The notes under the pieces: generated by a model
The model's database searches: none
Told to the model about the DNA's origin: nothing
Seen by the model: the letters and a program-made list of their open reading frames with translations, nothing else
Position numbers and translations under genes: made by a program
From: a virus
DNA: 37,470 nt
Virus record (IMG/VR): IMGVR_UViG_3300037635_003524
Coordinates: 1 to 37,470 of that record
Strand: one strand, 5' to 3'
Part shown: piece by piece, positions 1 through 37,470 of the stretch
Position numbering within the stretch: position 1 is the first letter of the stretch
How the letters are laid out: each line of letters opens with the position of its first letter

Positions 1-1103
1 GCCCTAAACCAGCCTAAAGCGTTGCCGTATGATGGTAAAGGCTACCTGTATCTCAGTGGTGTTAGTGGTAACTATGCGAGCGGCACAACTACTGGAGAAC
101 TCGGTGGGCTTAATGATGTTGTAATCCAAGTGGATGACATTTCTAGTGATTGGCTTGCGGGAGACAAGAGAATGGTTTTAGGCACACCAAATATAAATTA
201 TTTTGGGCTAAGAGTAACTTCTTCCCGTAATGTATATGCTTTTTTCTCAGAAACCACCCTTTTTAATTCTAATGAATCAAAAGTATCGACGGCTTCGTTT
301 TCAGCGAATGACTTCGACACTGTTTCAATTAGGGTTATTAGAGACACAACTGCTCAAACAGTTACATACTTTGTAGACACAGGTTCGGGCTTCACTCAAC
401 TAGGCGATGCTTTAAGCGTCACAGGCGCAACAACTTATTCGCATACAAACAATTTTGAAATTGGGTCACGAATTGATGGTTCAAGTGATTTGCTTTATGG
501 GAGAATCGGAAGAGTAAGAGTTTGGCCTAACACAGCAATGACGGAAGGCTCAGAGATAGTTAACGTAGACTTCACGGCCACCAACGTGCGCCACGGTGAC
601 ACCAAGTTCAAATGCGCGACTGGCCAAGTGGTAACAATCAACCAGTCCGGCAACGACCCCGCGACGATTATCAAGAAGAGTGTCTTGCGGTTCGATGGTG
701 CAAATAGTGGTCTTCGCGGTCTGTTCAATCAGACGATTGATAGCGGCTATATGTTCGCTGCATTTAGTGTGCTTGGGGATGGTGGTGCGTTCTCGGGAAG
801 AGTATTTGCTGTAAACTCGACAGGCCAACTTGACTCTGATGTTTCTGGCAGCGGCGCAATCTTTTCAATTCAGCAAGGGACGGACACTAATCTTCGGACT
901 TATGTTAATAACGGTTACAGAACCATTCATCCTGCATTATTTGATGACGCTAATGGTGACATACTTAATGAGTCTTTAATCAAAGATGGCACTCAGTTGA
1001 GCCGAGTCAATAACGCAGACCAAAGCACAACTTCTATTGCTACCTCAATTTCAGCGGAAGAGTTCAGTGTAGCATCGCGAAGCAATCTAGCCTATAACAC
1101 AGC
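1..1103 (+). repeat. Long direct repeat, left copy
   Basis: Bases 1-1103 match 33874-34976 at a constant offset of 33873. I saw one mismatch, at base 27 (G here, C at 33900), then no difference until base 1104 (C here, A at 34977). Beyond that the copies become a patchwork of near-identical and clearly different blocks. The repeat covers the lectin-like N-terminal part of the adhesins. Identity was checked line by line by eye and by the identical translations; it was not computed. Confidence 0.9.
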
Positions 1104-3369
1104 CATCGACCTAGAGTTCCTTGCACTATTCCCATCAAGCATCACCGACGACCAAGCTGACGACGTTCGTAACTACATCAACAACCGCAACAAAGTCTTC
1201 GACCTCAAGGACGGCTTTGGCTACTACTTCTTTGACGCACAGAACGCACCAGTCGGCGCGATAACATCAGGCTCATCCTCATGGAACGGACGTATCGTTG
1301 GCTCGGACAATGGCGACTCTGACCGCTATTTAACACAAGGCACAAGCAACGACAGCCCAGTGGGTAATGGATACACCGTCACCTTCGCAGACAACACTGA
1401 CCACCTAGAGATTCCATCGACAACCCAAGCTGGCTGGCAGGTCGTCGGGACGTCACTCGGAACCTTTGCCTACAAAGTGAATGCTAATGCGGTCACTGAG
1501 TTAAACCTTTTGGGTAACCTTGGCAGCACATCGTATCGCAAAGCTGGTGATTTGTATGGAATAATATTATTACCAGAGAGCGCAACTGGCAAAGACATTG
1601 AGCAGGCCAGAAGTCTGTTAATCGACCGAGGTGCGGCTGATGGTTCAGCTACGAGTTCTTTTCTAACTGCGTGGTTTCAGCGGTCTGACATTGTTGAATT
1701 TAAACCTATTGATTTTTCAAGCGTTACTGACGCTGCGGCCGCATGGAGAGAAACAAGTCTTGTGTCTTTTGACCTTAAATTACCGGATGTTCAAAGCGCA
1801 TCGCGGTCATGGCAAGACTGCTCGTCACTTGAAAGTTTCAGCGCAGAGCTTCCTTCAGCGACTACAGTACACAAAGCATTTATTGGCTGCTCGTCACTTT
1901 CAGATTTTAAAACAACGGACATCAAGAACTGCAGCAACTTCTCGTCCGCATGGCAATCCTGCTCGTCCCTGAGTTCATTTCCGGCGGGCGCAAAGCTCGG
2001 CACGGAGGCGGACAATGTAAACTTTGAGAGCGCATGGCGGTCTAGTGGACTTGAAAGTTTCCCTGCGTTGGACTTAAGCAATGGCAATAACTTCTCGGCC
2101 GCATTTAAATTATCTCCGCTCACATCTTTTCCAGAAGACATTCTGCTTGGAACTAACAGCACCGCCGTCCGCTTTGATGCAGGTTGGATGAATTGTAGCG
2201 GACTTACGTCTTTCCCAAATATTGACCTGAGTGAAGGGAGAACATTCAACGGCGCTTGGTGGTATAATACTTCCCTAGTCAACTTCCCTGCTTTATTTAC
2301 CAATTGGAGTCCATCAACTGTTACTTCGTCAGTATTTAATGGAACTTGGAGAGGGTGTAGTTCTTTAAGTTCAACTTCGGTAGAAAATATTTTAACTTCA
2401 ATAGATTCAAGTGGTGTGTTTGGGACTTACACAGGTTTAGTCACCGGAACAGCACTGCCTGACGCTGGCATAGACATCGACTACAACGTAGCCACTGGCT
2501 CACTCAGTGCCGCGACGAACTCCGCAATCGACAGTCTCTCCGGCAAAGGCTGGGAGGTGTTTATCAACGGAGTGCTTGTGATTCCTAACATCCTAGACCT
2601 AGCACCCGCAGCCGCTTACAGTCTCCGTTCGTTCGATGCTGACGCTGACCCGAATGTTGTTAATGTTCGACGTTCAAGCGACAACACCACTAACACCTTC
2701 AAGGCATCCGAGGTTAGCGATGGAACGCTTGTGGCTTGGGTAGGTGCAGGGAACGACGGCCACGTCACCACATGGTATGACCAAGGCGGCACTAACCACG
2801 CAAACCAATCAACGGCATCAAGCCAGCCTAAGATTGTCGATGGAGGCACGCTGGTGACTGAGGGCGGTCTGGCTGCGGTGGACTTCCATACTGAGGCTTC
2901 TAACTTGAGCCTTGACCATAGTGACCTTTATGGACAAGCAACCCTTGATTCGTTTTATGTGACTAATGCCACCGGAGACGCTTACCTTTATCCTTCTTTA
3001 TTGTCAACTGGAAACGCATACGGCATGGTTGCCGCCTCGACTGCCGGTGGCGGTAATAATAGCACTACCATTTCTACCAACTACGGCTCACCAACGTTTT
3101 ATGCTAACGGCACTGAAATAACGGGGACAACACGGGGTGGTATTTATGCAGCTACATCTGGAGGGCGAAAACTTGTTGGCCACCAAGGTGCTGACACAAG
3201 TTATACAGCGTGGAGTTCTGGTAGTGTCAACTTTGGTAACTTTACCTTTTCCGCAACGGCCTTTGGCTACACAGGCAAACTCCAAGAGATGATTTTCTTC
3301 AACACCGACCAGTCAGCCAACCGCACAGGCATTGAGAAGAACATCAACGACATTTACACCATCTACTAG
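1..3369 (+). CDS. Giant tail adhesin with lectin-like and leucine-rich-repeat domains (5' truncated)
   Basis: The reading frame is open from the first base, so the true start lies upstream. The 1122 visible residues would become about 1173 if the N-terminus matches the second copy at 33721. In order: a concanavalin/LamG-like domain (about 10-170), a second lectin-like domain (about 200-390), a further beta domain (about 400-545), BspA-like leucine-rich repeats (about 560-800) with recurring AW..CSSL.SFP units, and a C-terminal domain (about 860-1122) with RRSSDN and VTTWYDQGG motifs like the arabinofuranosidase-B-type domain of marine phage tail proteins. Inferred role: virion-surface receptor binding. 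The C-terminal domain is absent from the second copy. Three small genes follow tightly. No GATC site occurs in the gene. Confidence 0.75.
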   Translation, partial: ALNQPKALPYDGKGYLYLSGVSGNYASGTTTGELGGLNDVVIQVDDISSDWLAGDKRMVLGTPNINYFGLRVTSSRNVYAFFSETTLFNSNESKVSTASFSANDFDTVSIRVIRDTTAQTVTYFVDTGSGFTQLGDALSVTGATTYSHTNNFEIGSRIDGSSDLLYGRIGRVRVWPNTAMTEGSEIVNVDFTATNVRHGDTKFKCATGQVVTINQSGNDPATIIKKSVLRFDGANSGLRGLFNQTIDSGYMFAAFSVLGDGGAFSGRVFAVNSTGQLDSDVSGSGAIFSIQQGTDTNLRTYVNNGYRTIHPALFDDANGDILNESLIKDGTQLSRVNNADQSTTSIATSISAEEFSVASRSNLAYNTAIDLEFLALFPSSITDDQADDVRNYINNRNKVFDLKDGFGYYFFDAQNAPVGAITSGSSSWNGRIVGSDNGDSDRYLTQGTSNDSPVGNGYTVTFADNTDHLEIPSTTQAGWQVVGTSLGTFAYKVNANAVTELNLLGNLGSTSYRKAGDLYGIILLPESATGKDIEQARSLLIDRGAADGSATSSFLTAWFQRSDIVEFKPIDFSSVTDAAAAWRETSLVSFDLKLPDVQSASRSWQDCSSLESFSAELPSATTVHKAFIGCSSLSDFKTTDIKNCSNFSSAWQSCSSLSSFPAGAKLGTEADNVNFESAWRSSGLESFPALDLSNGNNFSAAFKLSPLTSFPEDILLGTNSTAVRFDAGWMNCSGLTSFPNIDLSEGRTFNGAWWYNTSLVNFPALFTNWSPSTVTSSVFNGTWRGCSSLSSTSVENILTSIDSSGVFGTYTGLVTGTALPDAGIDIDYNVATGSLSAATNSAIDSLSGKGWEVFINGVLVIPNILDLAPAAAYSLRSFDADADPNVVNVRRSSDNTTNTFKASEVSDGTLVAWVGAGNDGHVTTWYDQGGTNHANQSTASSQPKIVDGGTLVTEGGLAAVDFHTEASNLSLDHSDLYGQATLDSFYVTNATGDAYLYPSLLSTGNAYGMVAASTAGGGNNSTTISTNYGSPTFYANGTEITGTTRGGIYAATSGGRKLVGHQGADTSYTAWSSGSVNFGNFTFSATAFGYTGKLQEMIFFNTDQSANRTGIEKNINDIYTIY

Positions 3370-3371: not shown

Positions 3372-3608
3372 ATGTATTATACATCACAAGACAAAGAGAC
3401 CCTTGACGCTTACAACGCGAAGATTGTTACTGGAGAAAACTACGATGGCACTACAACAGTCCTGTGGGCTAATGTGGTTGAGCATCACGAAGGTGGTATG
3501 TTTGCAATTCTTAAGCACAACGGTTACCAGCTCATCGACGGCGAAGAGGATGCACCTACGGTTGATAACATCTCTGATTTCTTTCCACCACTTGAGGAAC
3601 TAAACTAA
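3372..3608 (+). CDS. Small protein downstream of adhesin, unknown function
   Basis: This 78-residue acidic protein starts three bases after the adhesin stop, and its own stop overlaps the next start in a TAATG junction. I do not recognise the family. It has no counterpart behind the second adhesin copy, where the 110-residue gene follows directly. Its position suggests a fibre chaperone, a fibre accessory protein or a small structural protein; that is inference from place only. It is predicted soluble and has no cysteines. Confidence 0.7.
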   Translation: MYYTSQDKETLDAYNAKIVTGENYDGTTTVLWANVVEHHEGGMFAILKHNGYQLIDGEEDAPTVDNISDFFPPLEELN

Positions 3609-3940
3609 TGAACGACGAAACCCATAGATTCTTCCGGTTCTCTGGCCTTCATCAAGCCAGCTATGACGAGCTTACAGAAAAAGGCAACGAAGCTAGAAAT
3701 TTACCTGATGGCGAAGGAACAGAAAGATGGCTTGCGCCGTGGGAAAAGCTATTTTTAGACCCCGAAACTGGCACAGATAAGTTATATTGTGTAAAACGCT
3801 CAGGTATATTGCCGACTGACCAGTTTGACCTAGAGGGTATCGAAGAAATCAACCTTGAGACTTACTTGCAACGCTTGCAATGGGAGCCACCGATTGAGGA
3901 AGACTTGGAGATGCTCGACGAACTAGAAATTTTAGACTAA
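3608..3940 (+). CDS. Conserved 110-residue protein of adhesin cassette (copy 1)
   Basis: This protein begins with the motif DETHRFFRFS and ends in a strongly acidic tail (EEDLEMLDELEILD). It is clearly homologous to the 110-residue product at 36547; shared stretches include LYCVKRSGIL and DFDLEGIEEINL-type sequence. Both copies sit directly behind a giant adhesin and before the same 111-residue gene, so the three genes travel as a unit. The function is not known to me. A fibre assembly chaperone or a fibre-associated structural protein would fit. Start and stop are coupled to the neighbours by TAATG overlaps. Confidence 0.8.
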   Translation: MNDETHRFFRFSGLHQASYDELTEKGNEARNLPDGEGTERWLAPWEKLFLDPETGTDKLYCVKRSGILPTDQFDLEGIEEINLETYLQRLQWEPPIEEDLEMLDELEILD

Positions 3941-4275
3941 TGGAAGACCAAGAACCTTTAACCGAGATTGAGCAGAGCCGCGCTGATTGTGGCTTTCGTT
4001 TCTATGTCGTAAAACCAGACGAATTGTATACGCAATTGGTCGCAAGCGTGGACACTGACCGACAATTCCCCAATAAGGCAAAAACTACCCTGACATCATT
4101 ACCACCCGTTGAGAGCCTTGCAGAAGCCACTGACGGAAGCGGAAGACTTATTGCAATTGATTGCTGGCGATTTACCGCCAACGATGACGCGCTTCTCGAC
4201 GGCGTTGATGGAGTGCAGGAGTTGACGCAGTTGGAGTTTTTAGCAATTAAGCCCGAGCCACAAAACGAACTTTAA
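3940..4275 (+). CDS. Conserved 111-residue protein of adhesin cassette (copy 1)
   Basis: It is homologous to the 111-residue product at 36879. Both begin MEDQ/MEDE, share EPLTEIEQSRAD and the strongly conserved core GRLIAIDCWRFTANDD, and end QELTQLEFL.IKP. It contains no signal peptide or membrane segment. The start overlaps the previous stop (TAATG), indicating translational coupling. I cannot assign a function. The constant order adhesin, 110-residue, 111-residue in two different phage contexts suggests a role in adhesin folding, attachment or assembly (inference). Confidence 0.8.
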   Translation: MEDQEPLTEIEQSRADCGFRFYVVKPDELYTQLVASVDTDRQFPNKAKTTLTSLPPVESLAEATDGSGRLIAIDCWRFTANDDALLDGVDGVQELTQLEFLAIKPEPQNEL

Positions 4276-4276
4276 A

Positions 4277-4462
4277 ATGCACCAACACCTCACGCATCCT
4301 GTAACCGGAATGATTGCCTCTAGTTGGTCGGCTTTAAGCGCATATTTTAATCACTTTGAAACTGCAACCGGATTTATTTCGGCAGTTATCGGCTTGGTTA
4401 TTGGGGTTTTGTCCCTCCTCAATACTTGGGACAACTTTAAACAACGAAGGAAAAAGAAATGA
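4277..4462 (+). CDS. Small membrane protein, holin-like
   Basis: This 61-residue protein has one clear hydrophobic segment (about residues 33-50, FISAVIGLVIGVLSLLNTW) followed by a very basic tail, NFKQRRKKK. Size, topology and place at the head of the lysis genes fit a holin, antiholin or other small lysis membrane protein. Its stop overlaps the next start (ATGA). It is the last gene of the GATC-free left block; the first GATC lies inside the following gene. Confidence 0.6.
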   Translation: MHQHLTHPVTGMIASSWSALSAYFNHFETATGFISAVIGLVIGVLSLLNTWDNFKQRRKKK

Positions 4463-4635
4463 TTGAATATATTACAGAAAACAAAGAGCAGCTTTTCGGC
4501 ATTGTAACAGCAGTAATCGCAGCAGCTTCAGCAATCGCCGCTTTGACGCCTACACCTAAAGATGACGGGCTGATCAAGAAGATCTATAAAGTGATCGATT
4601 TTCTGGCTCTCAATGTCTTTAATGCCAAGAAGTGA
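4459..4635 (+). CDS. Small holin-like membrane protein
   Basis: Fifty-eight codons from ATG to TGA encode a short N-terminal region, a hydrophobic alanine-rich segment (about residues 12-28, LFGIVTAVIAAASAIAAL), a TPTPKDDG turn, and an amphipathic tail ending NAKK. I recognise this layout from small phage membrane proteins often annotated as holins. It overlaps the previous gene by four bases, and the next GTG start overlaps its stop. The first three GATC sites of the window lie in its 3' third. Confidence 0.6.
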   Translation: MIEYITENKEQLFGIVTAVIAAASAIAALTPTPKDDGLIKKIYKVIDFLALNVFNAKK

Positions 4636-4841
4636 TCAAGCTGCTTACTGTTGCTTTACAAAGCTGGATTTGCCTTGTTAAGCTTAAAGAAAGAAAGCTT
4701 GTTTATGATATTGAAGACGAAATTGATCGCCTTGCCGCTGATGGCTCTCCTGCTGCAAAGTTGCGGATCGAGCGCCTTGGTAGGAGGCTCAAAGCTGAAC
4801 GAGAGCGCCCTTTACGATCCTCCAACGATCACGTTGATTAA
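4632..4841 (+). CDS. Putative inner-membrane spanin (Rz-like)
   Basis: A GTG start overlaps the stop of the preceding gene. The 69-residue product has a short hydrophobic N-terminus (about residues 3-16) and then a long charged, probably coiled-coil region rich in K, R and E. This is the topology of an i-spanin, which joins with an o-spanin to disrupt the outer membrane at lysis. The o-spanin candidate at 4705 is embedded in it in another frame, as in Rz/Rz1 pairs. The hydrophobic stretch is short, so the call rests largely on the arrangement. Confidence 0.5.
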   Translation: MIKLLTVALQSWICLVKLKERKLVYDIEDEIDRLAADGSPAAKLRIERLGRRLKAERERPLRSSNDHVD

Positions 4842-4941
4842 AGGGCAATTTTACCAGTTTGAAGAAGGGATCTTGCCGGGTCGGGGGCAAAAATTCCATA
4901 ATGATTACAGCTATCGACGCGCTATCATCATAGGTAAATGA
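4705..4941 (+). CDS. Putative outer-membrane lipoprotein spanin (Rz1-like)
   Basis: I chose the ATG at 4705 because it begins an excellent lipoprotein signal: MILKTK, a hydrophobic core, then LLQSC with the acylated cysteine at residue 20. The mature part is about 59 residues. The gene starts inside the i-spanin candidate in the +1 frame and runs past its end, like embedded Rz1 genes. It should be exported, lipidated and sorted to the outer membrane, implying a Gram-negative host. An upstream in-frame ATG at 4651 would put charged residues before the signal and is less likely. Its stop overlaps the amidase start. Confidence 0.65.
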   Translation: MILKTKLIALPLMALLLQSCGSSALVGGSKLNESALYDPPTITLIKGQFYQFEEGILPGRGQKFHNDYSYRRAIIIGK

Positions 4942-5594
4942 AACCGAGCCAAATACTTGACAAGATTCTTGAGTTAATTACTGCCTACAAGGTGGCGATT
5001 GCGGCAAAGCGCAAGAAAGTCAAGAAATTGAAGCGTGTTGCTATTTGCGTAGGACATAGCCGAATTGGCGACAAAGGCGCGTGTTCTGTCGGCGGTGTGG
5101 ACGAGTGGACTTACAACAAAAAGGTTGCGGATATATTACAGAACCATCTTAGGCATCAAGGTGTTCAATCGGTTGTTTTTGATAACTACCCGGCAGAAAG
5201 CTACGGCCGAGCCATGGACTGGTTAGGCCAGAGCGTTGCAAAGGAAAAGTGCGACATTGCGATAGAGCTGCACTTTAATAGCTACTCAAGCACGAAAGCA
5301 GAGGGATACGAATACCTGTTTTATCACGCCAGTAATAACGGCAGAAGATTAGCTGAGTGTTTCCGCAAAGCTCAATCTGAAACTTTTAAGGTGCAGAAAG
5401 ACAGGGGGATTAAGCCGATTGAGGCTGATGGCCGGGGAGCTGGATTTCTGCGATCTGTTGCGCCTCCTGCCGTGATCTGCGAGCCTTTCTTTGGCAGTTC
5501 TCCGAAGGAATGGATACTAATGGAGAACAAGCACAGCTTACTAGCTGACGTTTATGCTCGCGCTATCGTTGACTATTTTGAGGGTGTCCAATAG
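4938..5594 (+). CDS. Endolysin, N-acetylmuramoyl-L-alanine amidase (Amidase_3)
   Basis: The 218-residue product has the Amidase_3 zinc site: His40 in VGHSRIGDKGA, Glu56 in VDEWTYN, His112 in ELHFNS, and the catalytic glutamate Glu182 in VICEPFFGS. The enzyme cuts the amide bond between N-acetylmuramic acid and L-alanine in peptidoglycan. An N-terminal stretch of about 33 residues with a hydrophobic helix and a lysine-rich patch precedes the domain; no cleavable signal peptide is obvious, so release probably depends on the holin. It is the last gene of the rightward lysis cassette and overlaps the convergent gene at 5573 by 22 bases. Confidence 0.9.
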   Translation: MKPSQILDKILELITAYKVAIAAKRKKVKKLKRVAICVGHSRIGDKGACSVGGVDEWTYNKKVADILQNHLRHQGVQSVVFDNYPAESYGRAMDWLGQSVAKEKCDIAIELHFNSYSSTKAEGYEYLFYHASNNGRRLAECFRKAQSETFKVQKDRGIKPIEADGRGAGFLRSVAPPAVICEPFFGSSPKEWILMENKHSLLADVYARAIVDYFEGVQ

Positions 5595-5971
5595 CCCTTG
5601 ATAACGCGATGAGAGCAATCAGCAGTGTCGTTTACTACGTTGTCAATCACTGCAACAAACTGATTGGTCATTTCTGCAATATAACGACCTTTCGGCAAAT
5701 CAGCGACCTTTGTGCTTTCTCCCTTAATCCTTTGGATCTTGATATATTCCCAACCTAAACTTCTCAAGGCACTCTCAAAGTCTTGCTTGTAAATCCCTTT
5801 TGCGATTGCGCGGCTTTGCATTTCCCCGAATGCTGAAGCCTCTTTGCATATCTTCCTAGCCTTTGCGTAGCTAATACTGCAAGCGATCGCCATGGCTCTA
5901 ATACAAGCATCATTGGTATTAAAAAACCCGGCGGCTTTCCTTCCTCCATCGTTATGTTTGAAGTGTTTCAT
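5573..5971 (-). CDS. Papain-like fold phage protein of unknown substrate
   Basis: This is the only leftward gene between the lysis and head genes. I chose the internal ATG at 5971 (MKHFKHNDGGRKAAG) because this N-terminus is typical of a phage family predicted to be cysteine-peptidase-like. Cys23 of the 132-residue product sits in the NDACIRAMAIA helix where the family places its nucleophile. The second motif, usually a histidine in a stretch like H-x-VAVIDG, reads NQFVAVIDN here, so the usual histidine seems replaced by glutamine. It could be an inactive relative or an adapter. Role unknown. Confidence 0.6.
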   Translation of the reverse strand: MKHFKHNDGGRKAAGFFNTNDACIRAMAIACSISYAKARKICKEASAFGEMQSRAIAKGIYKQDFESALRSLGWEYIKIQRIKGESTKVADLPKGRYIAEMTNQFVAVIDNVVNDTADCSHRVIKGYWTPSK

Positions 5972-5992
5972 TGTGTTGTAGTAATAAGAAAC

Positions 5993-6003
5993 GGGGACCA
6001 CAT
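5993..6003 (+). repeat. GGGGACCAC boundary motif, copy between lysis and head modules
   Basis: GGGGACCACAT lies in the gap between the leftward gene at 5971 and the portal start at 6046. The identical 11 bases recur at 31234 just after the large terminase, and GGGGACCAC recurs at 21997-22005 on the minus strand and at 10575. By composition this nonamer should be seen less than once in the window. Confidence 0.5.
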
Positions 6004-6045
6004 CCCAGACGCGACCCCTTGGGCTCTGTCTGACATCGTTTTTCG

Positions 6046-7773
6046 ATGAACTATGGATCGCTCATTAGGGCCGCATTTCCTTCTCGACGTGATAAAAGCA
6101 AAGTTGTTGAAGCAAAAGAAAATACTGTCGAAAGTGGCGATTTTGATCCTATTGTTGCACCTAAAGCGCAAGACAGATTGCTTGAGCTGATTGAGCGGGA
6201 ACAGCTACCCGGTGACGTTAGAGATACCCTAGCAGGCGCTCTGACAGGTGATTTGCAGCGTCAACAGCTCTTATTTCAAGCCATGATCGACACATGGCCG
6301 CGCTTGCAGAAGAATCTGTCTGAGGTATTCCGGGAAGTTAAAAAAGCGCCTTGGTCGTTTGATCCATATTGTGAGCGAGGCGAAGAGCCGAAAGACTCTG
6401 CAATTGAAAAAGCAGCATTAGCAGAGAAATCGCTGCAAGATATGACGCCGAGGCCAGCATACGGTGAGCGAGGCAACAAAGGATTGATTGAAGATTTGGC
6501 GTTTGGTTATTTCTCAGGTCATCAAGTGGTCGAGCTGCGTTGGAGCCAGAAATATGATTCTATTTGCCCGAGAGCCGCAAAGGTCTGCCCTCCAAGGTTT
6601 TACGGCTACCCAATTGAGACTGAAGGAGAAGATCGGTTAATGTTCTCTCCTGATGGTCAGTATTACGGAACAAACTACGTTGATTTCCCTGAGCATCGCT
6701 TTCTTTTAGCTGTTAACTCGGGCCATCCGGGGCATCAATCAATTGCAGCTCCTCTCAGGGCTCTCACTGGCTACTGGCTTGCCGCAACCTTTGGCTTAAA
6801 GTGGTTATTGCAGTTCTCTCAGCTTTACGGCGTCCCATTCCGTTGGGCAAACTATTCTGACCCCAACGACAAAGCTAAAGTATGCTCAATGCTTGAGACT
6901 ATTGGATCGTCAGGATGGGGAGCGTTCCCAGAAAACACCAAGCTCAATTTTGTCGACGCAAGCAAATCAGCCTCATCACTTCCACAAAAGGAATTGATTG
7001 AGATGGCAGATCGCCAGTGTGATACCTTCATTCTAGGTCAAACGTTGACGACTGACGTAGGTAGCAGCGGAAGCCGAGCCCTTGGCGAAGTTCACGAAGG
7101 AGTTAGATCTGGCGTGATTGAGGGAGTTGCTGAGTTTGTTGCAGACATTCTGAACGAGCAGATGTTGCCGTCTTTAATTCATCTTAACTATGGCGATGCA
7201 AGCGAGATCCCTACGATTAGGGCAGACTTTGAGCGTTCACGAAACGAGAAAGAAATGGCCGAGCGTGATCGCGTCTTGTTTAAAGACATGGGCTTGCCAG
7301 TCGAGAAATCATGGTTGCACGAGCGCCATAGAGTTCCAGCACCAGACCCAGAGTCTGACGATCTATTTCAGCCGAGCCCGGATGGTGCTCAAGGAGAACT
7401 TGAGACAGAGGCTTCGTTGGCTTCCCATGAAACAGAGGGACGGCTGGAAACTCTTCCTGTGCAAGTGAAAGCCAGAGAAGAGGACTTTTCGACAACTATC
7501 GACAAACTAAGCGCAAACGTGCTTGAGGATCTGACTGGTGTAACTCAAGAATGGGTTAAGCCTGTCAAACCGTTCTTTGATCGCCTTGCCGCCCTCGCTA
7601 TGTCCAAGAATGTGACTGATGAGGACTTCACCAAAGCACTTATTGAAGCGCAAAACCAGCTTCCTGAGTTGTTTGATTCGTTGAACGTTGAGGTGTTGCA
7701 GGATTCTCTTGATGCAGCAATCGGCACAGCAATGCTTGCCGGGAGCGTCGAACGCTACGAGAAAAATGATTGA
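6046..7773 (+). CDS. Portal protein, DUF935 / Mu gp29-like
   Basis: The 575-residue product resembles the DUF935 portal family (phage Mu gp29). The core includes APWSFDPY near residue 100, IEDLAFGYFSGHQVVELRW, PEHRFLLAVNSG, LRALTGYWLAATFGLKWLLQF and DTFILGQTLTTDVGSSGSRALGEVHEGV near residues 325-350. Portals form the dodecameric ring through which DNA enters the capsid. The C-terminal part (from about 430) is acidic and variable. The gene begins the head module, and its stop overlaps the next gene. No Shine-Dalgarno sequence is evident before the ATG. Confidence 0.88.
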   Translation: MNYGSLIRAAFPSRRDKSKVVEAKENTVESGDFDPIVAPKAQDRLLELIEREQLPGDVRDTLAGALTGDLQRQQLLFQAMIDTWPRLQKNLSEVFREVKKAPWSFDPYCERGEEPKDSAIEKAALAEKSLQDMTPRPAYGERGNKGLIEDLAFGYFSGHQVVELRWSQKYDSICPRAAKVCPPRFYGYPIETEGEDRLMFSPDGQYYGTNYVDFPEHRFLLAVNSGHPGHQSIAAPLRALTGYWLAATFGLKWLLQFSQLYGVPFRWANYSDPNDKAKVCSMLETIGSSGWGAFPENTKLNFVDASKSASSLPQKELIEMADRQCDTFILGQTLTTDVGSSGSRALGEVHEGVRSGVIEGVAEFVADILNEQMLPSLIHLNYGDASEIPTIRADFERSRNEKEMAERDRVLFKDMGLPVEKSWLHERHRVPAPDPESDDLFQPSPDGAQGELETEASLASHETEGRLETLPVQVKAREEDFSTTIDKLSANVLEDLTGVTQEWVKPVKPFFDRLAALAMSKNVTDEDFTKALIEAQNQLPELFDSLNVEVLQDSLDAAIGTAMLAGSVERYEKND

Positions 7774-8374
7774 TGTCGGTGTAGATGTAACGGACAACGC
7801 AAGCCCGGCACTAAAAAAAATGATTGCCTTACTAGATGGTAGGGAAATCTCTGAGTTGAATGAGGTTGGTGCAAGATCCGCAACAAGTGCTTCAATTGAT
7901 TATCATAGGGGCTTCAACAGTGAAAACGGTTGGAGGGGGTCAAATTACTTAGCGGGACCGGGGCGCAGATCAGGAGATTTTGCGCAAAATATAACGCTAG
8001 GGTGGAATTTTGTAACTGCGAGCAAACAAGGCGCAACGATTCGCAACAGTGCGCCATTTTACGCTCACAAAGTTACGGGCGGCACTATTACGCCCAAAAG
8101 GGCTAAAGCCCTAACGATCCCAATGGTCTCTGAAGCAGTCGGCAGAAGAGCGCGAGACTATGAATTAGCAACTGGGAATTTACTTTTTCGGGTAATGGGC
8201 AAAAAGGCGCTGTTTGAAAAGAAAGAAGGCGGTGGAATTCGCGCCGTTTATGCGCTAGTCAAACAGGTCACGCAAAAACCTTGGCCCGGAGCATTACCTG
8301 ATCAAGACTTGCTAGAAGATTCCTTTACTAAAGGATGGATGGGCGCATTTGCTGACAAAATTGAATCGTTATGA
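7766..8374 (+). CDS. Phage virion morphogenesis protein (Mu gpG-like)
   Basis: I chose the ATG at 7766, which overlaps the portal stop, giving 202 residues beginning MIDVGVDVTDNASPAL; an upstream start at 7688 would read deep into the portal gene. The product has features of the virion-morphogenesis/tail-completion family: N-terminal helix, RRSGDFAQNI near residue 70, IRNSAPFYAHKVTGGTI near 90, and YALVKQVTQKPWPGALP near 165. It is longer than the usual 150 or so residues. Expected role is in head completion or head-tail joining. It overlaps the following MuF gene by four bases. Confidence 0.72.
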   Translation: MIDVGVDVTDNASPALKKMIALLDGREISELNEVGARSATSASIDYHRGFNSENGWRGSNYLAGPGRRSGDFAQNITLGWNFVTASKQGATIRNSAPFYAHKVTGGTITPKRAKALTIPMVSEAVGRRARDYELATGNLLFRVMGKKALFEKKEGGGIRAVYALVKQVTQKPWPGALPDQDLLEDSFTKGWMGAFADKIESL

Positions 8375-9948: not shown

Positions 9949-10124
9949 ATAAGGCAATGACTGAAATCTATGATGACTTTTTTGCTAAGGTCGTCGATTT
10001 TGAGTCCGCTGTTAATAAGCTTGTCGATTTAGGCGTATCTGAGGAAGATGCTAGATCTGGTTTAGCTTCTATGATGACGATCAACTTCACAATCATTGAT
10101 GATTTAGAATCGGGGACCAGATAA
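9930..10124 (+). CDS. Small acidic protein, candidate partner or immunity protein of MuF-peptidase
   Basis: This gene overlaps the 3' end of the MuF-peptidase gene by 19 bases in another frame and encodes 64 residues, of which many are Asp or Glu (MDEEELDKAMTEIYDDFF). It has no known motif, signal peptide or membrane segment. Small acidic proteins coupled to toxin-domain genes are often inhibitors, so an immunity or holding role is a testable guess; it may equally be an unrelated head-assembly factor. The last codons contain GGGGACCAG, a one-base variant of the phage's boundary motif. Confidence 0.6.
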   Translation: MDEEELDKAMTEIYDDFFAKVVDFESAVNKLVDLGVSEEDARSGLASMMTINFTIIDDLESGTR

Positions 10125-10153
10125 GAAGGTCGCCAGAAAAGAGCTTTTAGCCA

Positions 10154-11170: not shown

Positions 11171-11202
11171 ACTCTATTTAAGAACTAAAACTAAAAAATA
11201 TT

Positions 11203-11580
11203 ATGCCCCTCGCAAATGATGGCCCAATCTTGGCCTTTGATAACGGAGCTTCCGCAATTGCCCAAGGCAAGGTTGTGAAGCTTTCTGCCGGAAAAACTGT
11301 TGTAACTGCTGCCAACACTGATGTGGCTTTTGGAGTAATTACAGAAGACGCTTCTGCTGATGGTCAAGCTGCTGTTGCAGTTGCTGGATCTGGTGCAGTT
11401 GTTCTCGTTGAAGCTCACGGTGTTGTTGCACTTGGAGCTGACCTAATGCCCGCCGCCGCTGGTCGCGCTGCAACTGCAACAAGTGGTAAGCACGTTTTAG
11501 GTGTTGCTCTTGAAGCAGCAACCGCACAAGGCGCTCTAATCAAAGTTGTTCTCGGACAAAGCAACAAGCCCACAGCTTAA
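11203..11580 (+). CDS. Capsid decoration protein, DUF2190
   Basis: The 125-residue alanine/valine/glycine-rich product, beginning MPLANDGPILAFDNGAS, fits the DUF2190 family, whose members lie just before the major capsid gene in Mu-type heads. The pattern of short beta strands (GKVVKLSAGKTVVTAAN, FGVITEDAS, AVVLVEAHGVVAL) and the C-terminal VLGVALEAATAQGALIKVV is typical. Such proteins are thought to coat or stabilise the capsid surface. The leader before ATG is A-rich with no Shine-Dalgarno sequence. Confidence 0.8.
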   Translation: MPLANDGPILAFDNGASAIAQGKVVKLSAGKTVVTAANTDVAFGVITEDASADGQAAVAVAGSGAVVLVEAHGVVALGADLMPAAAGRAATATSGKHVLGVALEAATAQGALIKVVLGQSNKPTA

Positions 11581-18627: not shown

Positions 18628-18630
18628 TAG

Positions 18631-29838: not shown

Positions 29839-31233
29839 GTGGCAGGATCAGGGACAACGCTAACGCCTGCCGAGTTTGCTCTGCTCAGGCTCAACATGGG
29901 CTCGCTCTACGATTGGCAAATCGAATGCCTTGAGTCCATTGGGCTACAAGAGAGCGGCGGGCTTCCCACGGCGGTAGTTGCAGCAAATGGGTCAGGCAAA
30001 ACGTCAAACCTTGTTGCGCCTGCCGTCCTTTGGTTTCTAGCGCATTACCCTAAAGGTCAGGTTGTGGTCACCTCTGGCTCGTTTAGGCAGATTGAGAAGC
30101 AGTTATGGCCTGCTATGCGGGTGTTCTCGCAGTGTTTCCCGGAGTGGTCGTTTCTGCAAACTGAGCTAAAAACGCCAGAAGGAGGTTTTGCGCTTGGGTT
30201 CTCAACAGACCAACCGGGTCGAGCTGAGGGCTGGCATCCAAAGATCAGCAAAGAAGATGATCCCGTGATGATTATCGTCGATGAGGCTAAGACCGTGCCA
30301 AATAAGATTTTTGAGGCGTTTGATCGTTGCACTCGCCTGTTTCAGCTTTGGGTATCATCTCCCGGCCCAGCAGTTGGAGAGTTTTATGAGGCATTCCATG
30401 CAAATCGCAGTTTGTTTTGGACTCGTCAGGTCACATCATTAGAATGCCCACACATTGACCCAGCAAAGCGAGAGCGCGATCGCAGGAAGCACGGGGAGAC
30501 TTCCCCTCTGTATCGGTCGATGCACCTTGCAGAGTTCACAGAGGACGAGGAAAGGCTTGTTATCACGGCGTCAAACCTAAGAGAAGCCATCGACACACAA
30601 GCGCCCAAGATCTACGGCGGCGAAAAGGTTGCGTTCTTTGACTTTGCAGCCGGACGAGATGAAAACGTTTTTTACATGCGCAAGGGCAACATTGTCGAGC
30701 TGGTTGACGCTTGGACAGATACCGACACAGTGCAGGCTGTGCGCAAGTTCATGCGGTTAGCCAAGCAACAAGGGCTTGCAGGAAGTCAATGCTGGGGTGA
30801 TGCTGACGGATTAGGCAAGCCGATGGTCGATTTGTTTGCGGATGAGGGATTTCCTATTAACGCATTTCATGGAGGACTCCCGGCAAAGGACTCACAAAAC
30901 TACGCTAATCTAATCTCAGAGGTCTGGATTCAAGGGGCGCGCAAGATTGAACGGGGAAAGATCCATATGGTTTCTAATGATGGCGAAGGGATTGACCCGG
31001 CAACTTTCAAGCAAATCACAAGCCGATTCATCGAATGGGACGACCGGGGTAAGCTTCGCGTTGAGTCTAAGAAGAAGATGGCAGCTAGAGGATTGAGATC
31101 ACCGGATAGAGGGGACGCGCTTCTTGGTTGCATTATTTGCGGCGCATCAATGACGGGATCACTGACTGATGAGGTATTGAATAGAAGCGAATCAGGATCA
31201 TCTAGGTTCTCAGTCAATCATGTGTCGTTCTAG
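29839..31233 (+). CDS. terL: Terminase large subunit
   Basis: A GTG start directly follows the small-subunit stop; 464 residues. ATPase motifs: Walker A AANGSGKTS (Lys54) and Walker B VMIIVDEA (Asp148-Glu149). Nuclease residues: Asp268 in FFDFAAGRDE, Asp321/Asp323 in WGDADGLGKP, and Asp422/Asp425 in SPDRGDALLG. It translocates DNA into the procapsid and cuts concatemers. The gene keeps the high GATC density of the phage body. Confidence 0.93.
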   Translation: MAGSGTTLTPAEFALLRLNMGSLYDWQIECLESIGLQESGGLPTAVVAANGSGKTSNLVAPAVLWFLAHYPKGQVVVTSGSFRQIEKQLWPAMRVFSQCFPEWSFLQTELKTPEGGFALGFSTDQPGRAEGWHPKISKEDDPVMIIVDEAKTVPNKIFEAFDRCTRLFQLWVSSPGPAVGEFYEAFHANRSLFWTRQVTSLECPHIDPAKRERDRRKHGETSPLYRSMHLAEFTEDEERLVITASNLREAIDTQAPKIYGGEKVAFFDFAAGRDENVFYMRKGNIVELVDAWTDTDTVQAVRKFMRLAKQQGLAGSQCWGDADGLGKPMVDLFADEGFPINAFHGGLPAKDSQNYANLISEVWIQGARKIERGKIHMVSNDGEGIDPATFKQITSRFIEWDDRGKLRVESKKKMAARGLRSPDRGDALLGCIICGASMTGSLTDEVLNRSESGSSRFSVNHVSF

Positions 31234-31556: not shown

Positions 31557-33704
31557 ATGTTTAGATTCTCAGAAAAGTCTGGCGTTCATGGGTTTTCTGG
31601 ACTTCACGGGACAAGTGGTGTTTATGGAAACTCTGGCGTTTATAAAGTAAGCGGGTTTAATCCATTAGACCTTGATCCTTACCTATTATTTGACGCTGAA
31701 ACGTCGATGATAGGCACGTTTGAGAATCCGACTTTAGACCTTGACCCTGCGACACCATCGACCCTTGACGTTATCACAGCGACCCGCTCATCAGTGGCGA
31801 CTAGGACACTTCCAGACGGGACGATAGCCTTGGCTGAACAGGACACGGTGCGCGTTGATTACACGCAGGGCGAGCAGTTGACGCCGACGAAGTTTCAGCG
31901 GTTTGTGAATACTGAGTTTGACCAAGCATACTGGTCGTTTAGCTCGCAGATGGGCAATCCGGTTTACAATTATGACACTGCTCCGAATGGAGAGCAGGAA
32001 GCCACCAGAATTGTATCAAACGGAGGTTCCTACCCTCAAATCGTTGAGACTATAGAAGGATTGACTATTGGGCAGCAATACACTGCTAGCTTTTATGTTA
32101 AATCCGACGGGACTTCACAGATTCAGCAAACCACTCATTTTACAGGACTTTCTGGCGGTATAGGTTTTACACCGACAGATAATTGGGAGCGAGCAAGCTA
32201 CACCATAACAGCAACAGCAACGACTCACAGTTTTGTTATTTTTACAAACGGTTCTTCCACTCCTGCTTCATCTTATCTTATTTGGGGGCCGCAGCTTGAA
32301 GAAGGCACAACCGCGAGCGACTTCGTGGAGAACACAACGGGCAGCCCGAAGTTTATAAGCAGTGCCGTCTACTCCGATAGGGTTCCCATGGTCTTAATAG
32401 AACCCTCGGCAACTAACTTGGTGGATTACAGTGAAGACTTTAGTGACTCTTATTGGACTAAAAGCGGTTCAAGTGTCGTAAGTGGTCAAACCTCTCCTAG
32501 TGGGGACACAAGTGCTTACAAGTTAGTAGAAGACACAAACAACGGTGAGCATAAAGTATCGACAGGCATCATATTTGTATCAGCAGGTAACACTGACACT
32601 TATAGTGTATTTGTAAAAAGGGCAGGCCGCACAAAGGTTGCAATTAGAGAAGAACAGCACGGGGGAAAATATGTTTCATTTAACCTTCTCAGTAAGACCG
32701 TAATCAGTAACACAGGATTGACTGCAAACATTATTGATTTATCTGACGATTGGTTACGCATTGACTATTCACAGAATTCAGGTGGCGGGTTAGAAAAGTT
32801 CAGCTTGTTTTTATTAGATGACACTTACACATCAGGAAGCCCTACGGCACATTCTTACACTGGAGATGGCACAAGCGGGGTCTACATCTGGGGCGCACAA
32901 GTCGAGGCCGGAAGTGTCGCAACGTCCTACATACCAAACCCCGCACCTATCTCCTCTGCTCTAAACAGTGTGACTTCTTTTGAGGCAGATGGTTCCGTCG
33001 GTGGCTTTAATAACATTCATGTCGAATCAATCGCTGGAATCTCAGGCAAAGAGGTTGAGGTCGAGTTTGAAATATTTGATTATGTATCTGGCACATCGGC
33101 ATGTCTTATGGGCCATGCGTTCACTCCTTCAATTCAGGTCGGCGGCTCTTTGAATGCCAATGGTATTTACCGAGGAGTGGTTACTGCCGATTCAAATAAT
33201 AGAATTTTATTTAGGAACAATTCTAATACTGATAACTTTACGGGGAAAATCAGAAACATCAAAGTTGTCGAGGTGGATACATCGGGAGCGCGAGCCGCTG
33301 ACAACCTTGTGATTACCGGCAGTGACTTCGATTTCTACAATGGTTCTGAGGGGACGTTTTATGTGGAGCTAATTGATAAGAATATTTTGGACATTGCCTC
33401 ACACCTGTATTTGCATGGAGGCGGAAACAATTTGATATTATACAGCAACGGTAATAGCGCAAACGTCGCCAATTATGATAATGCGAATTTCTTACAATTC
33501 TCAGGGATTCCCTCAAACCAACTAATTAGAATGGCACTGAGTTACGAATCTTCGACTAAGAAATTAAGCGTGAACGGAAACACATCCAGCGATTCTGCAT
33601 ACAACGGTAATTATTCTGGGATTTCCAGTTTAACCATAGGAACTAATTTAAGCGGCCACATCAAGCGCGTCCTATTTTGGCCATATTCGTCCGACCGTCT
33701 TTAA
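31557..33704 (+). CDS. Modular tail fibre/spike with carbohydrate-binding-like domains
   Basis: The 715-residue product begins with a short repetitive glycine/serine motif (SGVHGFSGLHGTSGVYGNSG), followed by a conserved fibre base and two tandem jelly-roll-like modules, each ending in an IWG-P/A-Q-L/V-E motif near residues 240 and 445, typical of phage head-spike/tail fibre domains that bind glycans. A C-terminal LamG-like domain ends GHIKRVLFWP. It likely acts in host recognition with the adhesin encoded 16 bases downstream. The last GATC of the window is at 31674 in its N-terminal coding part, so the distal modules seem to come from a different background. Confidence 0.72.
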   Translation: MFRFSEKSGVHGFSGLHGTSGVYGNSGVYKVSGFNPLDLDPYLLFDAETSMIGTFENPTLDLDPATPSTLDVITATRSSVATRTLPDGTIALAEQDTVRVDYTQGEQLTPTKFQRFVNTEFDQAYWSFSSQMGNPVYNYDTAPNGEQEATRIVSNGGSYPQIVETIEGLTIGQQYTASFYVKSDGTSQIQQTTHFTGLSGGIGFTPTDNWERASYTITATATTHSFVIFTNGSSTPASSYLIWGPQLEEGTTASDFVENTTGSPKFISSAVYSDRVPMVLIEPSATNLVDYSEDFSDSYWTKSGSSVVSGQTSPSGDTSAYKLVEDTNNGEHKVSTGIIFVSAGNTDTYSVFVKRAGRTKVAIREEQHGGKYVSFNLLSKTVISNTGLTANIIDLSDDWLRIDYSQNSGGGLEKFSLFLLDDTYTSGSPTAHSYTGDGTSGVYIWGAQVEAGSVATSYIPNPAPISSALNSVTSFEADGSVGGFNNIHVESIAGISGKEVEVEFEIFDYVSGTSACLMGHAFTPSIQVGGSLNANGIYRGVVTADSNNRILFRNNSNTDNFTGKIRNIKVVEVDTSGARAADNLVITGSDFDFYNGSEGTFYVELIDKNILDIASHLYLHGGGNNLILYSNGNSANVANYDNANFLQFSGIPSNQLIRMALSYESSTKKLSVNGNTSSDSAYNGNYSGISSLTIGTNLSGHIKRVLFWPYSSDRL

Positions 33705-33720: not shown

Positions 33721-36543
33721 ATGGCACTCAATCTATCCACACTGACCAGCCCAGCGACATCTGGAGACGTCCTAGCAGAAGCCCTGACCACCGCTGATTT
33801 CCTTGAGAGCGTTCCGGTTCTTCGCAACTTGGCTCGCGGTTCACAAAAGGGCGGCGATGCGAAACAAGACGTTGCCCTAAACCAGCCTAAAGCGTTGCCC
33901 TATGATGGTAAAGGCTACCTGTATCTCAGTGGTGTTAGTGGTAACTATGCGAGCGGCACAACTACTGGAGAACTCGGTGGGCTTAATGATGTTGTAATCC
34001 AAGTGGATGACATTTCTAGTGATTGGCTTGCGGGAGACAAGAGAATGGTTTTAGGCACACCAAATATAAATTATTTTGGGCTAAGAGTAACTTCTTCCCG
34101 TAATGTATATGCTTTTTTCTCAGAAACCACCCTTTTTAATTCTAATGAATCAAAAGTATCGACGGCTTCGTTTTCAGCGAATGACTTCGACACTGTTTCA
34201 ATTAGGGTTATTAGAGACACAACTGCTCAAACAGTTACATACTTTGTAGACACAGGTTCGGGCTTCACTCAACTAGGCGATGCTTTAAGCGTCACAGGCG
34301 CAACAACTTATTCGCATACAAACAATTTTGAAATTGGGTCACGAATTGATGGTTCAAGTGATTTGCTTTATGGGAGAATCGGAAGAGTAAGAGTTTGGCC
34401 TAACACAGCAATGACGGAAGGCTCAGAGATAGTTAACGTAGACTTCACGGCCACCAACGTGCGCCACGGTGACACCAAGTTCAAATGCGCGACTGGCCAA
34501 GTGGTAACAATCAACCAGTCCGGCAACGACCCCGCGACGATTATCAAGAAGAGTGTCTTGCGGTTCGATGGTGCAAATAGTGGTCTTCGCGGTCTGTTCA
34601 ATCAGACGATTGATAGCGGCTATATGTTCGCTGCATTTAGTGTGCTTGGGGATGGTGGTGCGTTCTCGGGAAGAGTATTTGCTGTAAACTCGACAGGCCA
34701 ACTTGACTCTGATGTTTCTGGCAGCGGCGCAATCTTTTCAATTCAGCAAGGGACGGACACTAATCTTCGGACTTATGTTAATAACGGTTACAGAACCATT
34801 CATCCTGCATTATTTGATGACGCTAATGGTGACATACTTAATGAGTCTTTAATCAAAGATGGCACTCAGTTGAGCCGAGTCAATAACGCAGACCAAAGCA
34901 CAACTTCTATTGCTACCTCAATTTCAGCGGAAGAGTTCAGTGTAGCATCGCGAAGCAATCTAGCCTATAACACAGCAATCGACCTAGAGTTCCTTGCACT
35001 CTTCCCATCAAGCATCACCGACGCCCAAGCTGACTCTGTTCGTAATTATATTAATAATAGGAACAACGTGTTTGACCTAAAGGACGGCTTTGGCTACTAC
35101 TTCTTTGACGCACAGAAAGCCCCAGTCGGGCCAATCTCATCAGGTTCATCCTCGTGGAACGGACGTATCGTTGGCTCGGACAATGGGGACTCTGACCGCT
35201 ATTTAACACAAGGCACAAGCAACGACAGCCCAGTGGGTAATGGATACACCGTCACCTTCGCAGACAACACTGACCACCTAGACATTCCACAAGTCACACT
35301 GGCGGCTGGAGACAGCTATGCATGGATGGTCTGCGGGACAAGCTTAGGGACGTTTGCTTACAAGGTGACAGTGAGTGGCCAAACGGAGATTAACTTGCTT
35401 GGACACACTGGTCATGCTGTTAGTTATTTTGCAGGAGACCTTTACGGAATCATTCTATTACCAGAAAGCGCAACTGGTGCGGACATTGAAGTGGCACGGA
35501 AATTGTTAATCGACCGAGGCGCGGCTGATGGTGCATCTTCAACGAGTATTAGCAATTATTTTAGAGGTCGAAATGATATTGTTGAGTTTGGAAATGTAAA
35601 TCTTGACAGTGTAACACACGCTTCTCAACTGTTTGGTGGTTCTGGAAATATCCAAAAGTTCAATGTTCCATCGCTGCCAAATGCTGTAGTTTTAAATAGT
35701 GCATGGGAAAATGGTGCTTTGCGCTCGTTCACAACGCAGCTTCCAAAAGCTGAAAATGTAACTTATACATGGTATCAAAACACGGAGTTAGAAGCATTTT
35801 CAGTTGACCTACCCGAAGTTACCGACGCGCGTTTCGCATGGTATGGTTGTTCAGGACTCAGTAATTTCAGGACAACGGACATCAAGAACTGCAGCAACTT
35901 CTCGTCCGCATGGAAATCCTGCTCGTCCCTAACGTCATTTCCGGCTGGCGCAAAGCTCGGCACGGAGGCAAACAATGTGAACTTTACGAGCGCATGGGAG
36001 TCTAGTGGACTTACAAGTTTTCCTGCGTTGGACTTAAGCACTGGTAATCTTTTTACAAGTGCGTTTAAACTATCGGCACTTACATCTTTCCCAGAAAACA
36101 TTCTTCTTGGAACTAGCAGCACCGCTGTAAGATTTGACCAATGCTGGAGTCAGTGTAATGGTTTAACTTCTTTTCCAAATATTGACTTATCTCAGGGAAG
36201 GTTTTTTTACATCGCTTGGTATTTCAACACAAGTCTGGTTGAGTTTCCGGCTTTGTTTACTAACTGGAATCCATCAATAATAACAAGCGGAGTATTTAAC
36301 CTAACATGGAGCGGCTGTTCCGCATTATCCGCTGATTCGGTCGGCAATATACTACAAAGCATAGATGCAAGTAATCAATTTGCCACAGTTGACGGAAATT
36401 CTGGGTCGGCTGCAATCGCTGACGCTGGCATCGACATCGACTACAACGTAGCCACTGGCTCACTCAGTGCCGCGACGAACTCCGCAGTAGATTCACTCAA
36501 AGCCAAGGGCTGGAGCATCATCGTTAACAACGTAACACTTTAA
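33721..36543 (+). CDS. Giant tail adhesin, second copy (complete, shorter)
   Basis: The complete 940-residue product starts MALNLSTLTSPATSGDVLAE, a 50-residue region likely to anchor it to the virion. Residues 52 to about 419 are the same as the left copy (one silent-level mismatch region seen near the junction), giving lectin-like domains. The leucine-rich-repeat part (about 590-880) mixes near-identical and different units, and the protein ends after KGWSIIVNNVTL without the C-terminal domain of copy 1. It is followed by the 110- and 111-residue partners and then a T7-like connector. Start follows an A-rich leader without Shine-Dalgarno. Confidence 0.78.
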   Translation: MALNLSTLTSPATSGDVLAEALTTADFLESVPVLRNLARGSQKGGDAKQDVALNQPKALPYDGKGYLYLSGVSGNYASGTTTGELGGLNDVVIQVDDISSDWLAGDKRMVLGTPNINYFGLRVTSSRNVYAFFSETTLFNSNESKVSTASFSANDFDTVSIRVIRDTTAQTVTYFVDTGSGFTQLGDALSVTGATTYSHTNNFEIGSRIDGSSDLLYGRIGRVRVWPNTAMTEGSEIVNVDFTATNVRHGDTKFKCATGQVVTINQSGNDPATIIKKSVLRFDGANSGLRGLFNQTIDSGYMFAAFSVLGDGGAFSGRVFAVNSTGQLDSDVSGSGAIFSIQQGTDTNLRTYVNNGYRTIHPALFDDANGDILNESLIKDGTQLSRVNNADQSTTSIATSISAEEFSVASRSNLAYNTAIDLEFLALFPSSITDAQADSVRNYINNRNNVFDLKDGFGYYFFDAQKAPVGPISSGSSSWNGRIVGSDNGDSDRYLTQGTSNDSPVGNGYTVTFADNTDHLDIPQVTLAAGDSYAWMVCGTSLGTFAYKVTVSGQTEINLLGHTGHAVSYFAGDLYGIILLPESATGADIEVARKLLIDRGAADGASSTSISNYFRGRNDIVEFGNVNLDSVTHASQLFGGSGNIQKFNVPSLPNAVVLNSAWENGALRSFTTQLPKAENVTYTWYQNTELEAFSVDLPEVTDARFAWYGCSGLSNFRTTDIKNCSNFSSAWKSCSSLTSFPAGAKLGTEANNVNFTSAWESSGLTSFPALDLSTGNLFTSAFKLSALTSFPENILLGTSSTAVRFDQCWSQCNGLTSFPNIDLSQGRFFYIAWYFNTSLVEFPALFTNWNPSIITSGVFNLTWSGCSALSADSVGNILQSIDASNQFATVDGNSGSAAIADAGIDIDYNVATGSLSAATNSAVDSLKAKGWSIIVNNVTL
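33874..34976 (+). repeat. Long direct repeat, right copy
   Basis: The right copy of the 1.1-kb repeat; see the entry at 1-1103. It encodes residues 52-419 of the second adhesin. The sequences part abruptly at 34977, within codons for the stretch AYNTAIDLEF, initially at synonymous positions. Confidence 0.9.
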
Positions 36544-36546
36544 GTA

Positions 36547-36879
36547 ATGACAGACGAAACTCATCGATTCTTTAGGTTCAGCAACGAGGCATCCTATGAC
36601 ACCTTGACCGCTGCTGGTAACGAAGCCCGAGGATTACCGGACGAACAAAGTGAACGGTGGCTGGCTCTTTGGGATAACACCTTCTTAGACCCTGAGACAT
36701 CTAGTGACCGACTCTATTGTGTTAAGCGCAGTGGCATCCTTGAGACCGACGACTTTGACCTTGAGGGCATTGAGGAGATTAACCTAGACACATATCTACA
36801 ACGATTGAGCTGGGAGCCACCTGTCGAAGAAGACCTTGAGATGGCGGATGAGTTAGAACTACTAGAACTACCTGACTAA
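36547..36879 (+). CDS. Conserved 110-residue protein of adhesin cassette (copy 2)
   Basis: Homologous to the product at 3608: shared DETHRFFRFS start, ERWLA.W...FLDPET, LYCVKRSGIL, FDLEGIEEINLDTYLQRL and an acidic C-terminus. The difference is spread along the protein, so this is a diverged relative rather than part of the recent identical repeat. It begins three bases after the adhesin stop and overlaps the next gene by one base. No GATC site is present. Function unknown, as for copy 1. Confidence 0.8.
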   Translation: MTDETHRFFRFSNEASYDTLTAAGNEARGLPDEQSERWLALWDNTFLDPETSSDRLYCVKRSGILETDDFDLEGIEEINLDTYLQRLSWEPPVEEDLEMADELELLELPD

Positions 36880-37214
36880 TGGAAGACGAACAAGAACCAC
36901 TCACAGAAATCGAACAGTCACGCGCTGACACAGGGTTTCGTTATTACGTCGTGCAACCCGATGTCTACACAGGACTTGTTAGCGCAGTAGATGCTGACCG
37001 TGGGTATCCTAACAAACAAGGCACTACGCTCACCGGACTTCCACCTGTTGCTAACCTGGCTGAAGCTACGGACAACTCAGGGCGACTCATAGCCATCGAC
37101 TGTTGGCGCTTCACCGCTAACGATGACCTGATGCTTGAGGGGACCGATGGAGTCCAAGAGCTTACTCAACTAGAATTTTTATCAATCAAACCTCAACCCG
37201 AGGAACTACTTTAA
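36879..37214 (+). CDS. Conserved 111-residue protein of adhesin cassette (copy 2)
   Basis: Homologous to the product at 3940, with EPLTEIEQSRAD, LPPVANLAEATDNSGRLIAIDCWRFTANDD in near-identical form and QELTQLEFL. It is followed 12 bases later by a T7-like head-tail connector gene instead of a holin gene. The constant pairing with the adhesin and the 110-residue gene in both places suggests the three work together. Function unknown. Confidence 0.8.
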   Translation: MEDEQEPLTEIEQSRADTGFRYYVVQPDVYTGLVSAVDADRGYPNKQGTTLTGLPPVANLAEATDNSGRLIAIDCWRFTANDDLMLEGTDGVQELTQLEFLSIKPQPEELL

Positions 37215-37226
37215 CAACAATAACAC

Positions 37227-37470
37227 ATGCACGCAGCCGAGACAGCACAGCAACTCTATACCACCCTAGAAGGCGCACGGTATTCCTACCTTGACCGAGG
37301 ACGGGCCTGTTCAAAGCTGACGCTTCCTTATGTTATGCCTGACGAGGGCTTCGGTCCCCACAGTCGCCTAGAGACACCTTTCAGTGGCGTCGGTTCCCGT
37401 GGTGTTAACAATCTTGCCTCTAAGCTGTTGCTTGCGTTGTTGCCTCCTAACTCACCTTTCTTTAGATTCC
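37227..37470 (+). CDS. T7-like head-tail connector (portal), 3' truncated by window end
   Basis: The ATG at 37227 opens a frame running off the window, giving 81 visible residues. They include an N-terminal helix with RYSYLDRGRACSKLTLPYVMP and then FSGVGSRGVNNLASKLLLALLPP, the well-known signature of the T7 gp8 family (in T7, VGARGLNNLASKLMLALFP). The T7-type connector is the portal of podoviruses. It is incompatible with the DUF935 portal at 6046 being in the same virion, so this end probably belongs to a different phage. No GATC site is present. Confidence 0.88.
   Translation, partial: MHAAETAQQLYTTLEGARYSYLDRGRACSKLTLPYVMPDEGFGPHSRLETPFSGVGSRGVNNLASKLLLALLPPNSPFFRF

Follow-up and report, generated by a model that had tools for sequence, protein, structure and literature searches.

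The window, that is, the complete 37,470-nt stretch of IMG/VR record IMGVR_UViG_3300037635_003524, begins in the middle of an adhesin gene, the remainder of which (1..3369, + strand) is an ORF truncated at its 5′ end by the contig end. This adhesin belongs to a marine phage hereafter called phage A. Downstream of it, the same strand carries four small genes of 78, 110, 111, and 61 aa (3372..4462; found in the same order in contig L059 with 58-100% aa identity), an amidase-type endolysin (4938..5594; PF01520, phrog_435), a Mu-type portal protein (6046..7773; PF06074, E=2.7e-69; 99% aa identity to contigs L057 and L059), and, much further downstream, the large terminase subunit TerL (29839..31233, + strand; 98-99% aa identity to contigs L041 and L057, with annotated terminase relatives in Akkermansia phages). 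The body of phage A also carries head genes as well as recombination and replication genes. A minus-strand gene block at 15314-22458 is mostly devoid of family matches, with 16972-18627 matching a tape-measure family weakly. The right end harbors, again on the + strand, a mosaic tail-fibre-like gene (31557..33704; phrog_5939, tail), a second adhesin ORF of 940 aa (33721..36543), whose 5′ part could stem from phage A or from a second phage, phage B, and whose 3′ part is ascribed to phage B, and the beginning (81 codons) of a gene for a T7-type portal, or head-tail connector (37227..37469; PF12236 Head-tail_con, E=2.1e-11; phrog_449). The adhesin 3′ end, two small genes, and the start of this portal gene make up an attached tail (34977..37470, + strand).

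The two adhesin genes share a long repeat. The segment 1..1103 recurs at 33874..34976, both on the + strand, with 1102 of 1103 positions identical; the sole mismatch is a G at position 27 of the left copy opposite a C in the right one, so that 28-1103 and 33901-34976 match exactly over 1076 bp. This identity, which had been described correctly by a sequence-only reading of the window, is far above chance expectation. The repeat contains no portal gene and sits inside the adhesin (receptor-binding protein) gene, with the left copy covering adhesin codons 52-419, including variable domains 1 and 2. Since its left edge coincides with the first base of the contig, the natural repeat may be longer. 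On the right, exact identity stops at 34976 as stated in the sequence-only reading, which had, however, overlooked that homology weakens there without ending: DNA identity is 86.6% across the 127 bp past 1103/34976, 74% between 1904-2526 and 35864-36486, and 65% between 3603-4253 and 36542-37192, such that weaker homology between the module copies extends to ~4250 and ~37190, respectively. The right tail is a second version of the adhesin and small-genes module found at the left end.

Alignment of the right-hand adhesin with its relatives revealed three conserved blocks on the + strand, referred to here as hinges. Hinge 1 is the conserved N-terminus (aa 5-65, 33733..33915), hinge 2 separates the two variable domains (aa 245-311, 34453..34653), and hinge 3 (aa 422-461, 34984..35103; 86.6% DNA identity between A and B) follows just past the end of 100% identity. 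The exact 1076-bp segment starts within hinge 1 (codon 61) and stops at codon 419, 7 bp short of hinge 3, thereby enclosing both variable domains. The adhesin module occurs in 35 viral loci. The adhesin profile had no relative in a scan of bacterial and archaeal genomes, a sequence search of solved structures returned none either, and Pfam gave no significant domain for the adhesin and the fibre with E allowed up to 10. The AlphaFold model of the adhesin is poor (mean pLDDT 57) and matches laminin-G/neurexin-like folds, a low-confidence hint which suggests that the variable domains are two tandem beta-sandwich domains resembling a laminin-G/neurexin LNS pair. Considering this low-confidence tandem LamG-like fold together with the tail phrogs in the adjoining fibre gene, the adhesin is a putative host surface-binding protein.

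The fibre gene upstream is a mosaic, with best matches changing along its length from L057/L076 to L009 and then to L030. It is of the A type up to ~31,800, and its later segments resemble other lineages: 31900-32299 is 97.75% identical to the 61-kb phage contig L009, and 33300-33699 is ~94% identical to the small contig L030. Because of this mosaicism, the switch to phage B could lie anywhere between ~31.8 kb and 34,976. Position 34976, previously taken as the boundary between two phages, thus marks where the A and B versions become distinguishable and not necessarily the switch itself.

As deposited, the window places the terminase gene 22 kb downstream of the portal gene. Both genes occur in 16 relative records, among them prophage-like regions of Haloferula and of MAGs assigned to Verrucomicrobiaceae and Opitutae, and in every one of these records the Mu-type portal gene lies 0.1-6.8 kb after terL on the same strand; if the ends of the window are joined, the portal gene comes to lie 8.7 kb after terL. 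Furthermore, L057, an independent 16.7-kb contig from another dataset, crosses this join, proceeding from a region matching window 29052-31790 (90.6%) through the fibre gene and a single adhesin gene to a region matching window 3961-14111 (91.6%). Joining position 33873 to position 1 also restores a stop-free, in-frame adhesin of 1173 aa, for which 33721-33873 supplies the start, and the adhesins of relatives that precede the same 78-aa gene measure 1118-1302 aa. The relatives' gene order, the course of L057, and the restored reading frame therefore support the view that the window holds essentially all of phage A, circularly closing (or permuted) at ~33.87 kb. This agrees with the closure at about 33.9 kb that had been proposed from the sequence together with a sensible gene order (terL, fibre, adhesin, small genes, lysis, portal, head), in which terL precedes the portal gene as in the relatives. 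The contig's own ends are not identical, as the sequence continues for 2.5 kb beyond the repeat and the right-hand overlap is internal.

The sequence beyond the repeat leads to a different phage. Contig L092 (IMGVR_UViG_3300006789_001120, 7993 bp) matches window 35754-37470 with 100% identity across 1717 bp and extends past the window's end, completing the T7-type portal gene and adding capsid and tail tubular genes, colinear with Ayaqvirus AP013544 at 88-93% identity. Owing to this identity and to the T7-like genes with which L092 continues, the tail can be attributed to the T7-like phage B. That everything to the right of 34976 comes from another phage, as had been claimed, is directly borne out for 35754-37470; since L092 begins at window 35754, we infer the same origin for 34977-35753 and, likewise, a probable presence of the repeated adhesin cassette in B. 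The partial portal protein shares 96% aa identity with that of AP013544 and 100% (residues 4-81) with that of contig L006, and a 24-mer from its gene matched 19 stretches in an exact-match scan of viral contigs, L092 being among them. Judged by these similarities, the tail belongs to an Ayaqvirus-like phage of the Autographivirales. In the fosmid-library record AP013544 (Ayaqvirus S45C18), the order of fibre, adhesin, two small genes, and T7-type portal is like that in the right tail of the window; however, its adhesin has only ~50% protein identity to the right-hand adhesin, which makes it a relative of phage B but a different virus. AP013544 also contains a gene for a single-subunit RNA polymerase, a region that L092 is too short to reach. 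A literature search with the Ayaqvirus record name and the dataset number of L092 found nothing.

Based on these comparisons, the window is very probably a chimeric metagenomic contig, in which phage A and ~2.5 kb of the unrelated T7-like phage B are joined within a shared adhesin gene. Its parts match different genomes, with L057, L059, and L041 corresponding to the phage A part, and no genome matches its whole length. Moreover, no record in a set of 26 relatives combines the two portal families or contains a second adhesin N-terminus, features shown by the window alone, in line with the earlier judgment that its two portal genes are incompatible. In the proposed scenario, the assembler would have started at the shared segment, completed one lap of phage A, returned to the segment, and left it via the B branch. 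A segment that exceeds short-read length and is common to both genomes would create a fork that the assembler could not resolve, and a path leading from the segment through the A genome back to the segment and into B would yield precisely the window as deposited and also account for its start at the segment. As for the cause of the long identity, on which the sequence-only reading had been silent, it appears likely that the exact 1076-bp segment is carried by both A and B, having been acquired through recent recombination in the flanking hinges that swapped the adhesin variable domains (between A and B or near relatives). The contig would then be an artefact whose cause is probably a natural and recent cassette exchange.

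A chimera could also have formed without natural exchange, if the 1.1-kb identity were the overlap of phage A with itself, read on a second lap, and if B had been misjoined through a short match at hinge 3 or through an amplification chimera. Such an origin would fit the conservation of hinge 3 (aa 422-461) among lineages, with 83-89% DNA identity between the window and B contigs, as well as the fact that exact identity stops just short of this hinge, and chimeric virome contigs are on record (PMC5610896). However, the DNA just 5′ of 34976 is poorly conserved (aa 401-420 have 33% aa identity to relatives), and A and B would still need at least one common assembler word there, which renders a misjoin without the cassette in B less likely. 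De Bruijn assemblers usually leave an overlap of word length, which a self-overlap of 1.1 kb exceeds. Furthermore, the mismatch near the contig start, at position 27, suggests two source paths, and exact hinge-to-hinge sharing is seen between other lineages. Overall, we regard a join without cassette exchange as rather unlikely.

A true duplication, which the sequence-only reading had considered possible, would turn the window into a single virus with two adhesin and two portal genes, as the deposited contig in fact reads, with open adhesin frames. It was rejected as extremely improbable: the two portal families are unrelated and, like two adhesin N-termini, do not co-occur in any of the 26 relatives, the left adhesin lacks a start, the order of terL and portal would be broken, and the tail is identical to the T7-like L092. 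The presence of 2.5 kb beyond the right copy and the position of the repeat inside an adhesin gene whose start belongs to one copy only speak against a direct terminal repeat of a linear packaged genome, as do the flanks past the copies, which are homologous yet diverged; although such a genome would likewise show near-identity between one contig end and a region close to the other, this explanation was likewise rejected and has hardly any probability. The same applies to strain variation within A, by which the tail would represent another A strain with a different adhesin 3′ end. Module and gene order are indeed the same up to 37214, but a T7-type portal gene comes next, and L092, by continuing into capsid and tail tubular genes of the T7-like kind, contradicts this explanation, leaving it with next to no credibility.

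The shared adhesin gene, in which A and B have very probably been joined, is part of a fibre, adhesin, and small-genes module that was found in at least 5 unrelated phage backgrounds with differing head and packaging genes. These are characterized by Portal_Mu; a T7-type portal of ~518 aa; a PF12236 portal of 548-553 aa with a phrog_2 terL; a phrog_21 portal with a phrog_15 terL; and a 61-kb phage with a phrog_2 terL. Despite unrelated head genes, some contigs match each other exactly within the adhesin or fibre: L024 and L013 over 570 bp between hinges 2 and 3, L037 and L036 over 487 bp from hinge 2 to a point shortly before hinge 3, and L034 and L037 over 503 bp from the end of the fibre to hinge 1. 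Cross-lineage identities of this kind come mostly from metagenomic contigs that are possibly chimeric themselves, with only AP013544 originating from a fosmid library, and each of the three matches could represent natural exchange or a further chimeric contig. Seven of 11 contigs broken inside the adhesin end at most 1 residue from a hinge (p ~0.01), in a set of loci found via patterns of which some lie in hinges. An exact-match scan of viral contigs for variable DNA of the cassette (~34383-34410) yielded no second carrier, with records very near the window possibly outside the scan, and the corresponding scans for the middle of the right adhesin (~35644-35670), the fibre (~32620-32643), and the left adhesin (~1746-1773) yielded no match. 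We tentatively suggest, as a possibility somewhat short of even, that at least 5 unrelated marine phage lineages draw on one interchangeable pool of tandem LamG-like adhesin cassettes, possibly all on the same Verrucomicrobiota hosts, and that these cassettes recombine between hinges, recently enough for 1076 bp of identity between a Mu-portal and a T7-like phage.

Relatives of the phage A terminase were found in Luteolibacter, Haloferula, Akkermansia, Verrucomicrobiaceae, and Opitutae genomes, with Akkermansia phages at 38-48% aa identity. One terL match at 98% originates from a Porticoccaceae MAG contig, which is itself a piece of an A-type phage ending in the fibre gene and may be a phage contig that was mis-binned. 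By its PF06074 portal and related terminase, phage A is assigned to a Mu-type-portal lineage related to Verrucomicrobiota prophages and Akkermansia phages and, going by its relatives alone, it probably infects Verrucomicrobiota; the shared adhesin suggests that phage B may have the same host.

Chimeric contigs arising from similar regions of co-occurring viruses have been documented (PMC5610896; Phables, PMC10563150); compared to those cases, the join was placed here in a specific adhesin gene, and both parents were identified. The window is an assembly artefact that rests on a further example of something already known, namely that unrelated marine phages share host-recognition modules. The Alteromonas phages A5, V22, and P24 are unrelated and yet share a host-recognition module, for which recombination between unrelated phages has been proposed (PMC10579305). 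As in the present case, a tail-fibre or receptor-binding module with downstream small genes is found there in marine phages that belong to different families and are otherwise unrelated in gene content. However, the Alteromonas modules are alike at the protein level, whereas the parts described here are DNA-identical for hundreds of bases and the hosts are uncultured; the likeness drawn here between their fibre/chaperone and the present adhesin is one of kind. Similarly, in the metaviromic islands of marine phages, the host-recognition genes form the hypervariable part of the genome and, like the present adhesin, combine a conserved N-terminus with C-terminal or lectin-like domains that vary (PMC3909814); these islands were described as under-recruitment within phage populations, unlike one cassette exchanged between families. 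Less usual here are the breadth, with five backgrounds, and the apparent recency, with identical DNA of ~1.1 kb.

The record should be trimmed, since in its deposited form it mixes two phages and hides the near-completeness of phage A, and any further contig of these phages with a break or a switch inside the adhesin gene needs checking. If the cassette sharing is natural, it would be evidence that a gene which probably sets host range has very recently been exchanged across phage families; A and B would then be predicted to share a host, providing a route to link uncultured phages with hosts. Lastly, two small genes of ~110 aa, located at 36547-37214 and at 3608-4275, accompany the adhesin in nearly every background, with 61-96% aa identity among the relatives inspected. 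This pair is without a known family and could encode fibre chaperones or attachment proteins.
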